A DNA stretch of 64,000 bases from Bacteroidales bacterium (GTDB lineage: Bacteria > Bacteroidota > Bacteroidia > Bacteroidales > UBA932). Below, piece after piece: positions 13,866 to 63,854 of the stretch (position 1 is its first letter; each line of letters begins with the position of its first letter). The notes below the pieces were generated by a model that was not told where the DNA came from, ran no database searches, and saw only the letters and a list, made by a program, of their open reading frames with translations. The position numbers and the translations under genes were made by a program. Location: assembly GCA_017620335.1 (NCBI GenBank), contig JAFZQO010000017.1, positions 45,369-109,368 of the forward strand, in the 5' to 3' direction.

Positions 13866-14849
13866 CTATGCCCTCCCGTATTTTTTCTGGTGACAGAACC
13901 TGTTGATGAGCGGGACCGCCGCATTCATCAGCAGGATGGCGAAGGAAACGCCTTCAGGATATGACCCGAAGTAACGTATCAGCATGGCTATCAAACCGAT
14001 ACCCACACCGAAGATGATGCCTCCCTTGTTGCTCATGGGAGACGTGACATAGTCGGTCGCCATGAAGCAGCTTCCGAGTATCATACCGCCGGTGAGGAGG
14101 TTGAAGACAGGGTCGGTGAAGCGGGCGGGGTTGATCAGCCACATTATGCCGGCGAACACGAACACCGTTGCCCAGATGGACAGGGTGATGTGGGGCTTGA
14201 TGACGCGGCGGACCAGCAGATAGACGAAGCCGACAAGCAGGGCGATCGCGGAAATCTCGCCGGCGGAGCCGCCGAGGTTCGCGAAGAGCATCTGGCCGTA
14301 AGAATAGCCGCCCGCGGACATGATGTCCTGGACGGACGCACCCTGCAAAAGGCCTTCCTTGATGGCGCCGAGCGGCGTGGCGCCCGTGACGGCGTCAGCG
14401 CCCCACAGGCCGCCGGGAATCTCCCAGTGCGTCATGTAGGTAGGGAAAGATACGAGCAGGAACACGCGGCCGGTGATGGCCGGGTTGAAGACGTTCTGGC
14501 CGAGGCCTCCGAAGCTCATCTTCGCCACGCCGATGGCGACGAGGGCTCCGATGAACACCACCCACCAGGGGGTGGTGGCGGGGAGGTTCATGGCCAGGAG
14601 CAGGCCGGTCACCAGGGCGGAGGAGCCGCTGAACAGGCGGATATCCTTCATGAGCCAGCGGGCGATGGCATACTCCAGCAGTACGCAGGACAGGGCGCTC
14701 ACCGCCAGGACCAGCAGCTCGGACCAGCCGTAGAAGACTACCGAGACCACTATCGCGGGCAGCAGGGCGATGATGACGTCACGCATCAGGGAGTCCGAGG
14801 ACACATCTGCGTGTACGTGCGGGTTGGGTGAAACTAAGTGTTTGTCCAT
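13866..14849 (-). CDS. rnfD: Rnf complex membrane flavoprotein subunit D
   Basis: A 327-residue membrane protein with about nine helices. Conserved RnfD elements include GGLGQNVFNPAITGRVFLL and the covalent FMN motif AVTGATPLG with Thr158. A C-terminal helix pair includes GVSFAILLMNAAVPLINR. It is placed 9 bp after rnfC and 2 bp before rnfG. It would relay electrons between the cytoplasmic RnfB/C side and the periplasmic flavin of RnfG and form part of the ion path. Confidence 0.95.
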   Translation of the reverse strand: MDKHLVSPNPHVHADVSSDSLMRDVIIALLPAIVVSVVFYGWSELLVLAVSALSCVLLEYAIARWLMKDIRLFSGSSALVTGLLLAMNLPATTPWWVVFIGALVAIGVAKMSFGGLGQNVFNPAITGRVFLLVSFPTYMTHWEIPGGLWGADAVTGATPLGAIKEGLLQGASVQDIMSAGGYSYGQMLFANLGGSAGEISAIALLVGFVYLLVRRVIKPHITLSIWATVFVFAGIMWLINPARFTDPVFNLLTGGMILGSCFMATDYVTSPMSNKGGIIFGVGIGLIAMLIRYFGSYPEGVSFAILLMNAAVPLINRFCHQKKYGRA

Positions 14850-24931: not shown

Positions 24932-27514
24932 ATGAAACGACTGGACAGGTTCATACTCAAATCCTTCATAGGACCGTTCGTAGCGATCCTCCTGGTCGTC
25001 ATGTTCATCCTGGTGATGCAGTTCCTTTGGGTGTACATCGACGAGCTTGTAGGCAAGGGCCTGTCATTCAGCGTCATCCTGGAGTTCCTGATGTGGGGCG
25101 GCTGCACCATCCTTCCGCTGGCCATGCCGCTGGCGACGTTGCTCGCGTCGATGTGGACCATAGGCCAGATGAGCGAGAACAACGAGCTCATCGCGGTCAA
25201 GAGCGCGGGCATATCGCTGGTCCGCATCATGACCCCGCTGTTCCTCGCTTCGGCCGTCATCAGCGTCCTGGCGTTCTACTCCGCCAACGACCTCGTGCCC
25301 GTCGCCTACGACAAGATCTACACTTTGCGCGACGATATCAACAAGACCAAGGACGAGATCAAGATACCCTCCGGTATTTTCTACGACGGCATTGAAGGCT
25401 ACATACTCCGCGTGGACGACCGCGACGACAGGACCGGGATGATGCACGGTGTCATGGTATATGACCATACCGGCAACAAGGGCAACACCAGCGTCACCCT
25501 GGCGGACTCCGCACTGATGAAGATGTCTTCATCCAAAGAGTATCTGACCTTCACCCTGTACAACGGCACGAACTACCAGGAGACAAATACCAAGCAGTAC
25601 CGTGACACCACCCTCGAGCTGCAGAAGTTGTTCTTCGCCCGCCAGGAGCTCCTGATCCCCTTGGAGAACTATTCCTTCGAGAAATCCGACAGCACCAGGT
25701 TCAGCGACCAGATCAAGTCCATGGACCTCGAAGACCTGTCAAGCTTCAGGGACTCGATCCACATCAGGTTCGACAGGGCGTACGACGCCCAGATGAAGAT
25801 GTTCAACTCCGCCATCGGAATGAACAAGAGGGAGCAGCTCGACACCTCCGTAAGGCGCAAGAACCTCAGGAATTTCGAGGATGAGAGCTATCTGGTATGG
25901 GATGACATCGAGTCCAAGATCGCAGCATACACCATGGCGTCGGAAAGGGCGACGATGGTGCAGAACGAGATGCTGAACATGAACCGCGACGTGTACGAGA
26001 ACCTGTTCTACATCCGCCGCGCGGACCTGGAGATCATGAGGCGCTTCGTGCAGGCCCTGGCCTGCCTCATACTCTTCTTTTTCGGCGCTCCGCTGGGATC
26101 GTTCGTCCGCAAGGGAGGCCTTGGTACGGCCGCCATCATCTCCGTCCTCTTCTTCGTCCTTTACTGGGTCGTTGACCTGACCGGCCAGAAACTGGCCAAG
26201 GACGGTGCGGTCTCCCCCCTCACCGGCGCTTTGATACCGCTTTATGTTCTTGTCCCGATTGCAGTGTACCTCGTATGGAAGGCATCGCACGACAGCGCCT
26301 TCAACACCGACTCGGTCAAGACCGCCTGGAGGGCCCTGAAGACGCGGGTCGCGGGATTCTTCAGGAAGACGCGCATCGTGTACATGGGTACGCCGGAGTT
26401 CGCCGTCGCACCGCTGGAGGCCCTTATTGCCAGGGGATACAAGGTCGTGGGCGTGGTGACCGTCGCCGACAAGCCCTCGGGACGCGGCCTCAAGGTGAAC
26501 GAGAGCGCGGTGAAGAAGTACGCCGTGGAGCACGGGATCCCGGTGCTGCAGCCTGTGAAGCTGAAGGATCCGGAGTTCCTTGACGCCCTCCGCTCATGGA
26601 AGGCCGACCTCTTCGTGGTCGTGGCCTTCCGCATGCTTCCGGAGGAGGTCTGGGCCATGCCTAAACTCGGCACCTTCAACCTCCACGCGGCGCTGCTGCC
26701 GCAGTACCGTGGCGCCGCCCCCATCAACTGGGCGGTCATCAACGGAGAGAGGGTGACGGGCGTGACCACGTTCATGATAGACCATGACATCGACACGGGA
26801 GGCATCATCCTGCGTGAGGAGTGCCGCATCAACGACACCGACACGGCGGGAGACGTCCACGACAGGCTCATGGCCATGGGCGCCGAACTGGTGACCCAGA
26901 CCGTGGAAGGACTCATCCAGGGAAATGCCGAGTTACGTGTGCAGCGGTCCTTCATCCAGGGTTCGGAAGTCCTCAAGCCCGCGCCCAAGCTCACCAAGGA
27001 GCTATGCCACATCGACTGGACGGACACCACCGAGAACATCTACAACCTCGTCCGCGGCCTCAGCCCCTACCCCGCCGCCTTCACCGAAATCCTTCCCGCC
27101 TCGCGGCAGGTGTCCTCCCGGACGTCCTGCTCTGCAGGACCCCTCCCGTCTGACGACGGGCCCCTCCCTCTTACGATGCCGAGGGTGGCACGGTCCGGGA
27201 AGACACCTGCCGACGAGGCGGGGAAGGCCGTACAAATGAAGATCTACAGGGCGGAGCGGATGACGGCTGCAGAGGTCGAAGCCGTCTGCGGCGAGACGAT
27301 GCCGACGCCGGGCACCGTCCTGTCGGACGGGAAGGCGCTGCTGGCCGTCACCACGGCCGACGGCGCGCTCCGCATCCGCGAGCTCCAGCTCGCGGGCAAG
27401 AAGCGCATGGACGTGGAGGCCTTCCTCCTCGGCTTCCGCGACCCGCAGTCATACGTCTGCACCCCCGGCACCTCCCGCGCCGTCCTCGCCTCCGTCCGCC
27501 AGGTCGAAGGTTAG
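24932..27514 (+). CDS. LptF/LptG-type permease fused in frame to methionyl-tRNA formyltransferase
   Basis: An 860-residue open frame joining two normally separate proteins. Residues 1 to about 478 are a YjgP/YjgQ permease: six membrane helices (three N-terminal, three near 365-460) around a periplasmic beta-rich domain, as in the lipopolysaccharide transport ABC permeases. Residues 480-860 are Fmt: RIVYMGTPEFAV, the catalytic Asn583/His585 (TFNLHAALLPQYRG) and Asp621 (DHDIDTGG), and a C-terminal OB-like domain. At the residue where a separate Fmt would begin, the codon is ACG (26369-26371) instead of ATG. There is no stop codon between the parts. The Fmt C-domain carries a roughly 45-residue insertion (about 720-766) encoded by a palindromic repeat. 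A sequencing error at the junction or internal initiation remains possible. Confidence 0.85.
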   Translation: MKRLDRFILKSFIGPFVAILLVVMFILVMQFLWVYIDELVGKGLSFSVILEFLMWGGCTILPLAMPLATLLASMWTIGQMSENNELIAVKSAGISLVRIMTPLFLASAVISVLAFYSANDLVPVAYDKIYTLRDDINKTKDEIKIPSGIFYDGIEGYILRVDDRDDRTGMMHGVMVYDHTGNKGNTSVTLADSALMKMSSSKEYLTFTLYNGTNYQETNTKQYRDTTLELQKLFFARQELLIPLENYSFEKSDSTRFSDQIKSMDLEDLSSFRDSIHIRFDRAYDAQMKMFNSAIGMNKREQLDTSVRRKNLRNFEDESYLVWDDIESKIAAYTMASERATMVQNEMLNMNRDVYENLFYIRRADLEIMRRFVQALACLILFFFGAPLGSFVRKGGLGTAAIISVLFFVLYWVVDLTGQKLAKDGAVSPLTGALIPLYVLVPIAVYLVWKASHDSAFNTDSVKTAWRALKTRVAGFFRKTRIVYMGTPEFAVAPLEALIARGYKVVGVVTVADKPSGRGLKVNESAVKKYAVEHGIPVLQPVKLKDPEFLDALRSWKADLFVVVAFRMLPEEVWAMPKLGTFNLHAALLPQYRGAAPINWAVINGERVTGVTTFMIDHDIDTGGIILREECRINDTDTAGDVHDRLMAMGAELVTQTVEGLIQGNAELRVQRSFIQGSEVLKPAPKLTKELCHIDWTDTTENIYNLVRGLSPYPAAFTEILPASRQVSSRTSCSAGPLPSDDGPLPLTMPRVARSGKTPADEAGKAVQMKIYRAERMTAAEVEAVCGETMPTPGTVLSDGKALLAVTTADGALRIRELQLAGKKRMDVEAFLLGFRDPQSYVCTPGTSRAVLASVRQVEG
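27091..27227 (+). repeat. in-frame palindromic repeat element, copy A (inside fmt)
   Basis: About 137 bp with nested inverted repeats. The outer arms are CCTTCCCGCCTCG and CGAGGCGGGGAAGG. The next arms, CGGCAGGTGTC (27104-27114) and GACACCTGCCG (27202-27212), are perfect. Inside are three hairpins: GTCCTGC-tct-GCAGGAC (27125-27141 region), CCCGTC-tgac-GACGGG and TGCC-gagggt-GGCA. It encodes residues about 720-766 of the permease-Fmt fusion at a point where E. coli Fmt has only a 4-residue turn, so it adds about 44 residues without breaking the frame. A second copy is in atpG at 55917-56058. The block 27166-27194 is identical in both copies. Confidence 0.85.
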
Positions 27515-55262: not shown

Positions 55263-56237
55263 CTACTGCATGGAGCCGCCGACGAGGTCGAGGATCTCGC
55301 TTGTGATCTTCTGCTGGCGGCCCTTGTTGTATTCGAGGGTAAGCTCCTGAAGTATATCCTCGCCGTTGTCCGTGGCGGTCTGCATGGCCACTGTGCGAGC
55401 GGCGTGCTCGGCTGCGAGGCTGTCGAGGATGACGGTATAGATGCGCAGGGAACGGACGCGCGGCATCAGGTCCGCGAGCATCTCCTCCGCCGAAGGCTCA
55501 ACGATAAGGTCCTCCGGCCATTCGCGGGAAACTCCCCCCTCCACATTCAGCGGAGCCATCGGAAGGAAGGTCTCGCACACGACCTTTTGAGTGGCAGTGG
55601 AAACGAAATGATTGTATATCAGCTCAATGCGGTCATACTTCCCGGCATCGAAATCCTTTTGGAGCCTCTTCGCCAGGTCATCCGCGCCGGCATAGGAAGA
55701 ATGGGCGACAAGCTCGTTCCAGTCTTCAGGCGAGGGATAGCCCGCCTTGCGCAGCGGGTCGGCAATCCTCTTTCCAACTGAAATCACTTCAACCTTGCAG
55801 CCCTGTGCCTTCAACGCATTGATGCGGGCCTTGACCTCGCGCAGGACATTGCCGTTGAACCCTCCGCACAGCGACGAATTCGACGCCACCGCCACGATCG
55901 CAATAGTCTTCCCCGCCCCTGTTGATACGGCAGGTGTCCCGCCCCCGAAAACGTCCTGCTCCGCAGGACCCCCCCCAAGCAAGCTTGGGTCCCCCCCTCT
56001 TACGATGCCGAGGGTGGCACGGTTTTCGGGGGCGGGCACCTGCCGTTTTTCAGCAGGGACGGTAGCCAGAAGAAGCTGGAGCATCTCGCGGAGCTTGCGC
56101 TCGTAGGGCGTCATGTTCGCGATGGCGTTCTGCGCCTTGTGAAGCTTGGCGGAAGCCACCATCTTCATCGCCGAAGTGATCTTCAGCGTACTCTTCACGG
56201 AAGCGATGCGTCCCTTTGTCTCCTTGAGCGATGCCAT
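55263..56237 (-). CDS. atpG: ATP synthase gamma subunit with repeat-encoded insertion
   Basis: A 324-residue rotor subunit, about 35 residues longer than usual. Both conserved ends are present: the N-terminal helix MASLKETKGRIASVKSTLKI with SAMKMVASAKLHKAQ, and the C-terminal helix NGEDILQELTLEYNKGRQQK. The core has VASNSSLCGGFNGNV. Between the first helix and the core, residues about 60-107 are a Gly/Pro/Ala-rich stretch encoded by palindromic element copy B (55917-56058). This lies in the loop that leads into the globular domain, away from the rotor shaft, so function can be kept. It is the last gene of the atp operon, 13 bp after atpA. Confidence 0.95.
   Translation of the reverse strand: MASLKETKGRIASVKSTLKITSAMKMVASAKLHKAQNAIANMTPYERKLREMLQLLLATVPAEKRQVPAPENRATLGIVRGGDPSLLGGGPAEQDVFGGGTPAVSTGAGKTIAIVAVASNSSLCGGFNGNVLREVKARINALKAQGCKVEVISVGKRIADPLRKAGYPSPEDWNELVAHSSYAGADDLAKRLQKDFDAGKYDRIELIYNHFVSTATQKVVCETFLPMAPLNVEGGVSREWPEDLIVEPSAEEMLADLMPRVRSLRIYTVILDSLAAEHAARTVAMQTATDNGEDILQELTLEYNKGRQQKITSEILDLVGGSMQ
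55917..56058 (+). repeat. in-frame palindromic repeat element, copy B (inside atpG)
   Basis: About 142 bp. The outermost arms are CCCTGTTGA (55917-55925) and TCAGCAGGG (56050-56058). The next arms are ACGGCAGGTG (55927-55936) and CACCTGCCGT (56037-56046), then CCCGCCCCCGAAAA with TTTTCGGGGGCGGG. Inside are hairpins GTCCTGC-tcc-GCAGGAC and CCCAAGC-aa-GCTTGGG, and the block 55995-56023, identical to 27166-27194 of copy A. The element lies in the same plus-strand orientation as copy A, but its host gene is on the minus strand, so the two host proteins read opposite strands of the element. Both frames are open. Confidence 0.85.
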
Positions 56238-63736: not shown

Positions 63737-63743
63737 TCGAAGA

Positions 63744-63854
<111 letters not shown>

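Follow-up and report, generated by a model that had tools for sequence, protein, structure and literature searches.

A probable mobile palindrome, kept by its fold, inserted in conserved genes of a Bacteroidales genus

The DNA analysed here (the window, 64,000 nucleotides of a Bacteroidales genome) contains two copies of a palindromic element, one inside fmt (copy A, 27091-27227) and the other inside atpG (copy B, 55917-56058). These two copies probably belong to a non-autonomous mobile palindrome that is kept by its fold and not by its sequence, and that has spread in one Bacteroidales genus. We infer this genus to be Cryptobacteroides from names: a search with Fmt returned 80 Bacteroidales loci, mostly from rumen and horse samples, three of which are named Candidatus Cryptobacteroides.

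An earlier note on this DNA, made from its letters, had described the two copies as a two-copy family, and all the sequence features that it listed are present. Both copies carry the hairpin GTCCTGC/GCAGGAC and share an identical block of 29 nt (27166-27194 in copy A, 55995-56023 in copy B). The central hairpin, on the other hand, is CCCGTC/GACGGG in copy A versus CCCAAGC/GCTTGGG in copy B. With up to 3 mismatches allowed, a 25-nt core pattern is found at two places in the window and not once in 100 shuffles. Folding of the two copies on both strands yields z-scores of -8.0 to -10.3, a value equalled by none of 200 shuffles, and the resulting fold is a long outer stem enclosing three hairpins. 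The shared terminal arms (CGGCAGGTG) are present as described in both copies; they are nevertheless atypical, as arms differ between most copies of the family. The number of copies has to be revised, since the element occupies 18 places in its own genome.

This figure was obtained with a covariance model built from 10 own-genome copies, which gave 20 matches at E <=1, two of them being the opposite strands of others. The element was matched in 83 of the 101 genomes of the genus, the own genome included (E <=0.01), in a scan with strict filters and up to 34 candidates scored per genome, and a second model, built from 57 copies, produced 19-38 matches in each of the seven genomes scanned with it. 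The search proposed in the earlier note thus revealed copies dispersed throughout genome and genus, and the outcome in which no further copies exist did not occur. Across the order, strict filters gave a match in four of 198 genomes, namely the own genome, one from another genus of the same family and two from other families. In genome G278, which belongs to another family of the order, the three copies seen (L161, L164 and L168) have common arms, unlike most copies of the main genus. The model matches range from 107 to 207 bases, 174 of 183 falling within 105-146. In a uvrD-like gene of the own genome (L043, 1490-1696), a copy carries an extra insert of ~78 nt around the loop of hairpin 3, its inner part reaching 147 nt versus 69 in L001. 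Viral contigs were considered as a further location, and a scan with the exact core pattern found nothing there.

On the window strand, the element reads from 5' to 3' as left arm, hairpin 1, hairpin 2, hairpin 3 and right arm. Hairpin 1 is of the GTCC..GGAC type, hairpin 2 is flanked by C-rich blocks, and hairpin 3 corresponds to CCCTC-TTAYGNTGCC-GAGGG and its variants. A pseudoknot forms between the last bases of the hairpin-3 loop and those directly 3' of this hairpin; its variable fourth pair is Watson-Crick in 169 of 181 parsed copies (T-A 89, G-C 60, A-T 20), against a mean of 72.5 and a maximum of 94 in a shuffled control; one further copy has C-G at this pair. In the first ten copies, a change on both sides is seen in 26 of the 42 predicted pairs. 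The arms of the 183 copies, bulges excluded, contain 4836 Watson-Crick, 44 G-T, 82 A-C and 118 other pairs, about 95% of the aligned positions being Watson-Crick although arm sequence varies between most copies. Arm mismatches cluster at positions 5-7 from the inner end, where they are mostly pyrimidine-pyrimidine, and a bulge of the left arm recurs at positions 15-17 (46 cases in 183 copies). The proposal that the family is kept by its fold agrees with this pairing, maintained via two-sided changes, including at the orthologous sites described below.

An RNA selected on the window strand would show G-U pairs in excess of A-C pairs. On this strand, G-T pairs number 44 versus 82 A-C pairs in the arms (p 0.0009), and G-U pairs 8 versus 40 A-C pairs in hairpin 2 (p 3e-6), the latter all located at one position and derived from 11 sources. 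As A-C on the window strand is G-U or G-T on the other, the minus strand (the window orientation reverse-complemented) seems to be the one that folds; judging from base pairs, this folded form could equally be RNA or single-stranded DNA. The inner part of the minus strand also folds better in 181 of 183 copies. This difference in folding energy is treated as weak because the G-rich strand has more wobble options, and the wobble counts were used instead. At gathering score, Rfam returned only 5S ribosomal RNA from the window, where this gene lies at 63742-63854 on the minus strand, and nothing from seven element loci. Matches to mir-431, mir-3138 and isrG obtained at relaxed thresholds are far below their gathering scores and were taken as chance matches to the long stem.

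The matching of flanking sequences between species identified 26 orthologous pairs of filled sites, 16 in the same orientation and 10 inverted. The inner 14 arm columns were counted. Where the arms match well (identity >=0.73; 15 site pairs), 157 columns are paired and unchanged, 30 have changed on both sides and are still paired, 19 are paired in one species and four are unpaired in both. The corresponding numbers for all 26 site pairs are 228, 92, 40 and four; the 15-pair figure is the stricter one because these pairs were selected for similar arms. The core is inverted in four of the 15. The cleanest inversion, L149/L159, combines flanks ~92% identical and the same arms with a reversed core. 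Misassembly could in principle produce such a case, although the element should be short enough for ordinary reads to span it.

Cores and arms differ in their relationships as well. When cores are compared, the nearest sequence is another copy from the same genome in 29 of 35 comparisons and the orthologue in three, with three ties. Because a best-of-many choice favours paralogues, the arms were used as a control. Over the 35 comparisons, the fraction of own-genome copies that are nearer than the orthologue has a median of 0.31 when cores are considered and 0.04 when arms are, and the orthologue beats all paralogues in 3/35 cases for cores and 10/35 for arms. Among the 57 pairs of copies from one genome whose cores agree to 97% or more, the identity of the variable arms is <=0.81 in 40 and >=0.90 in 17. 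These comparisons suggest that cores group mostly by genome and arms mostly by site. This split, with arms tied to their site and cores that are tied to their genome and can be inverted, is the most unusual trait of the family; neither the split nor the core inversion was found described in those parts of the literature that were consulted for comparison.

Flank matching also provided 133 comparisons between filled and empty sites, many of them against the same copies. The inserts are therefore not ancestral in all relatives, the case that the earlier note had named as contrary to its view: many sites are empty, and some others are common to several species. When L105 is set by eye against L097, L082 and L103, the insert includes both arms and no duplication is evident. 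Comparison with relatives, which the note had suggested for Fmt and AtpG as a way to borders and target duplication, supplied empty sites and, at the L105 site, an insert with both arms, and no clear duplication. An origin of the arms as copies of the target was considered and rejected: the L105 comparison places both arms in the insert, and 15 of 16 hand-picked empty sites lack a perfect palindrome with arms of at least 8 bp. Two related observations concern the occupants of such sites. At L093 (~4770), the site that holds the element in L108 and L131 has just a core-less palindrome with arms of 10 bp, which would be either a remnant or a precursor. At L119 (~14130-14250), the place in the gene taken by the element in L105 and L029 contains another insert, also rich in hairpins.

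The position of the copies relative to genes was determined with a codon-usage score, trained on the open reading frames (ORFs) of the window and applied to both flanks of 183 copies. This score is conservative. It places 31 copies in frame with an open reading, four in phase with a stop, and 20 between coding flanks that differ in strand or phase, leaving 70 that have a coding flank on one side, 50 that lack any and eight that are too short. Phase is kept in 35 of the 44 copies with coding flanks on the same strand (p 4e-10 versus 1/3). The 31 open in-frame copies derive from 14 of 45 sources, are divided 16:15 between the two orientations and use several reading frames. A Pfam check, which covered 12 of the 18 own-genome copies, located 11 within matched ORFs, L009 being without a match. 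In nine of these 11, the insert has Pfam matches on its two sides or is surrounded by one (M16 peptidase, UvrA, TilS, TruB, UvrD, RibF, MiaB, Fmt and AtpG); in DnaX the copy follows the last clear domain, and in a GHMP kinase it precedes the first. One methyltransferase-like gene (L058) even contains two in-frame copies. To the question of which copies lie inside genes and in which frame, raised by the earlier note, the answer is therefore that copies sit within conserved genes in either orientation and keep the frame.

The fmt site illustrates this situation. The lptG and fmt genes of the window form one ORF (24932-27514), and in 79 of the 80 related loci the same frame stays open for more than 300 codons before the start of Fmt; judging from these frames, the LptG-Fmt fusion is genus-wide. 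The element is absent from fmt in all 80 related loci. Between two conserved motifs, the Fmt of the window has 56 residues, the commonest value being 17 and 72 of 81 sequences, the window included, having a turn of 16-21 residues. The in-frame insertion at this turn is thus as first described, with a net size of ~39 residues in place of the ~44 given earlier. In a predicted Fmt model (19 sequences, mean predicted local distance difference test, pLDDT, of 77), the insert (residues 248-282) scores below pLDDT 50, between confident strands at 236-242 and 287-296. This low score is as expected for a flexible loop. Other short palindromic in-frame inserts, encoding CHPERSEGS, RHSGLDPES and the like, are found at the same turn in L086, L097, L125, L092, L103, L105 and L115. 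Most of them start with CGTC or TGTC followed by AT and resemble by eye the CGTC repetitive extragenic palindromes (REPs) treated in part of PMC3733652. Since several other species have other palindromic inserts at this turn, it is regarded as a tolerant site. The coordinates of both window copies are collected in Table 1.

Table 1. Parts of the two window copies and their host reading frames
Feature	Position	Strand	Basis or remark
Copy A left arm	27091..27123	+	Pairs with right arm; within fmt, conserved turn of Fmt
Copy A hairpin 1, GTCCTGC-TCT-GCAGGAC	27124..27140	+	Folding, covariation
Copy A hairpin 2, CCCGTC-TGAC-GACGGG	27145..27160	+	Folding, covariation
Copy A hairpin 3, CCCTC-TTACGATGCC-GAGGG	27166..27185	+	Best-conserved part
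Copy A pseudoknot, TGCC (27177-27180) with GGCA (27187-27190)	27177..27190	+	Covarying pair, 181 copies
Copy A right arm	27193..27227	+	Folding
Copy A host ORF, LptG-Fmt fusion	24932..27514	+	In-frame read-through of element
Copy B left arm	55917..55952	+	Within atpG (gene on - strand)
Copy B hairpin 1	55953..55969	+	Folding, covariation
Copy B hairpin 2, CCCAAGC-AA-GCTTGGG	55974..55989	+	Folding
Copy B hairpin 3 and pseudoknot partner GGCA (56016-56019)	55995..56019	+	Covariation
Copy B right arm	56022..56058	+	Folding
Copy B host ORF, AtpG	55263..56237	-	Residues 3-322 align to 282 profile positions

A mobile palindrome of this type would have to be recognised, as a folded single strand, by an enzyme supplied in trans. 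The most likely candidate is a Y1 (HUH) transposase of the RAYT (REP-associated tyrosine transposase)/TnpA-REP kind. Insertion of the element would leave no clear target duplication. Within genes, stop-free in-frame insertions at tolerant turns would survive and be translated as extra loops. After insertion, the arms might correct one another, by template switching or repair across the palindrome, or be selected to pair on the minus strand, or both, and the cores would be replaced between sites and flipped through the arms. We infer the Y1 transposase as mobiliser from the distribution of its gene (PF01797), present in 75 of the 83 genomes with the element versus three of the 18 without it (Fisher 1e-9), so that 75 of the 78 Y1 genomes have the element; this is a plain co-occurrence, uncorrected for phylogeny, which lessens its weight. 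As a control, DDE_Tnp_1 was found in 36 of 101 genomes, a hand count giving 27/83 with the element versus 9/18 without (p 0.18). In the regions L292-L311, the Y1 genes of the genus have their own simple hairpins at the borders, several of them beside TGATAATCA-like words (by eye). Integron integrase (TIGR02249) was also searched for and exceeded the cut-off in none of seven genomes. Two copies, in L236 (G113:C1, ~87435) and L255 (G016:C3, ~105600), lie within ~60 bases of a match to a tyrosine recombinase gene, which may be chance.

Further points weigh against the mobile palindrome and its proposed mobiliser. Of the 78 genomes (among 101) with a Y1 gene at E <=0.001, only 70 exceed the curated cut-off, and no Y1 gene was detected in eight genomes that have the element, one of which, G014, holds 14 copies in an assembly 70% complete. 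The element lies near the Y1 gene in one of 20 Y1 regions (L293), as a single copy, and the flanks of the others show different hairpins by eye. Direct repeats beside the arms are near chance, except for repeats of 6-7 bp in five of 180 copies (0.6 expected). In six of the ten inverted orthologous pairs the arms match poorly, and separate insertions could account for them. The ends of the arms were set at the best-pairing extent, so that the arm counts are biased toward pairing, and at the position of the hairpin-2 A-C pairs, 29 of 136 copies mismatch otherwise (C-T 20, C-C 7, A-G 1, T-T 1). The codon-usage score finds seven of 17 own-genome copies in frame, fewer than Pfam suggests. More generally, the genomes are metagenome assemblies of species distant from one another, and the copies counted are related, so that the p values come out too low.

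Other explanations can be weighed against the same data. The arms could be fixed docking sites belonging to each locus, and the core a cassette that is inverted or exchanged by a structure-recognising recombinase. This organisation would account for cores that follow the genome and arms that follow the site, for the 40 of 57 core-alike pairs with arm identity <=0.81, for the core reversed between unchanged arms in L149/L159 and for the core-less palindrome of L093 at the element site of L108. It is nevertheless unlikely: no recombinase was found, the integron integrase included in the seven genomes searched; gene conversion together with recombination through the inverted arms could yield the same pattern; and the 17 pairs with arm identity >=0.90, like the G278 trio with its common arms, indicate that whole elements move too. 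The corresponding picture of a fold-recognised cassette, with site-specific co-evolving arms around a core that is swapped and flipped, which would provide essential proteins with exchangeable, invertible peptide inserts, is accordingly doubtful.

A classical miniature inverted-repeat transposable element (MITE), moved by a DDE transposase via conserved terminal inverted repeats, would share the size, inverted arms and copy number of the present one. It is very improbable, as arms are unlike between most copies, target duplication is not clear and DDE_Tnp_1, the one DDE family counted, shows no association. The covarying pseudoknot and strand-biased wobble are what a structured RNA spread incidentally in genes would display, be it a regulatory one or one cut out of the mRNA in the manner of introns or bypass elements; the better folding of the inner minus strand points the same way, with the reservation already made about G-rich strands. 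Yet sense and antisense copies are balanced at 16:15, phase is kept and the frame is open, none of which an excised segment would need, and no Rfam family matches the element at gathering score in the window or in the seven element loci, which makes such an RNA a highly improbable explanation. Ancestral protein loops or assembly artefacts are hardly credible. The 26 orthologous filled pairs might recall inherited loops, but none of 80 relatives has the element in Fmt, several frames and both orientations are used, and the same sites are filled in separate assemblies.

A mobile palindrome kept by its fold remains the probable explanation, and its interest lies in what this genus makes accessible. 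In-frame palindromic inserts are already described from Rickettsia and some REP-rich genomes, their movement being unsettled in the portions of the literature used here. The abundance of the family in this large gut genus, with its numerous comparable species, allows filled and empty sites, the co-evolution of arms and the exchange and inversion of cores to be read from sequence, and the way in which such elements copy themselves and keep their fold becomes directly testable. The insertions also suggest that Fmt, AtpG, TruB and UvrA tolerate inserts of ~40 residues.

Several known systems share features with this element; no description of the element itself was found in the parts consulted of the literature on Rickettsia palindromic elements (RPEs), REP/RAYT, Bacteroidales MITEs and palindromes, and Cryptobacteroides repeats. 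Bacterial MITEs such as ERIC and Correia are small mobile repeats that may fuse in frame, according to a section of PMC2229807. The terminal repeats of the present copies differ between most copies, with the exception of recent groups such as the G278 trio, and a general target duplication is not seen (6-7 bp in 5/180, versus 0.6 expected). The attC sites, as outlined in part of PMC2727003, are imperfect palindromes of low conservation, and their recognition takes place on the bottom strand and involves extrahelical bases. They offer a useful analogy, as the present element is likewise a poorly conserved imperfect palindrome, has wobble pairs in favour of the minus strand and shows a left-arm bulge at positions 15-17; its copies, however, are dispersed and often lie in genes, and no integron integrase exceeds the cut-off in seven genomes. 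REPs measure 20-65 nt and have a tetranucleotide foot such as GTAG or CGTC, from the relevant passages of PMC3733652 and PMC6006769, and the former reports for several species that REPs occur within uvrA, truB and genes for UvrD-type helicases. They resemble the present element as many-copy palindromes, some of them in genes, and Y1 genes co-occur with the latter across genomes. The shortest match of the present element is, by contrast, 107 bases, beyond the range of REPs. Its arms hold at most 0.19 bits beyond position 27 in the core register, although a foot at varying distance is possible since arm length varies. Unlike in REPtrons, the copies do not flank Y1 genes (one of 20 regions, with a single copy).

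The closest likeness is to the RPEs, as the earlier note had proposed, and it concerns behaviour, the two being compared by description and not by sequence. RPEs are palindromes of 105-146 bp in Rickettsia, located in frame inside conserved genes and also between genes (PMC2229807, in part), and in Rickettsia RPE-1 is found in truB and REPs in uvrB (PMC3733652, in part). The present element is palindromic, falls in the RPE size range and lies in frame in conserved genes, with truB and excision-repair genes hit in both. The host phylum differs. Moreover, the multi-hairpin structure with a covarying pseudoknot, the copy-specific covarying arms and the inversion and homogenisation of the core are not described for RPEs in the sections of PMC2229807 and PMC3733652 considered here. 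On this comparison, the best reading is that the element would work like RPEs and nevertheless constitute a family of its own.

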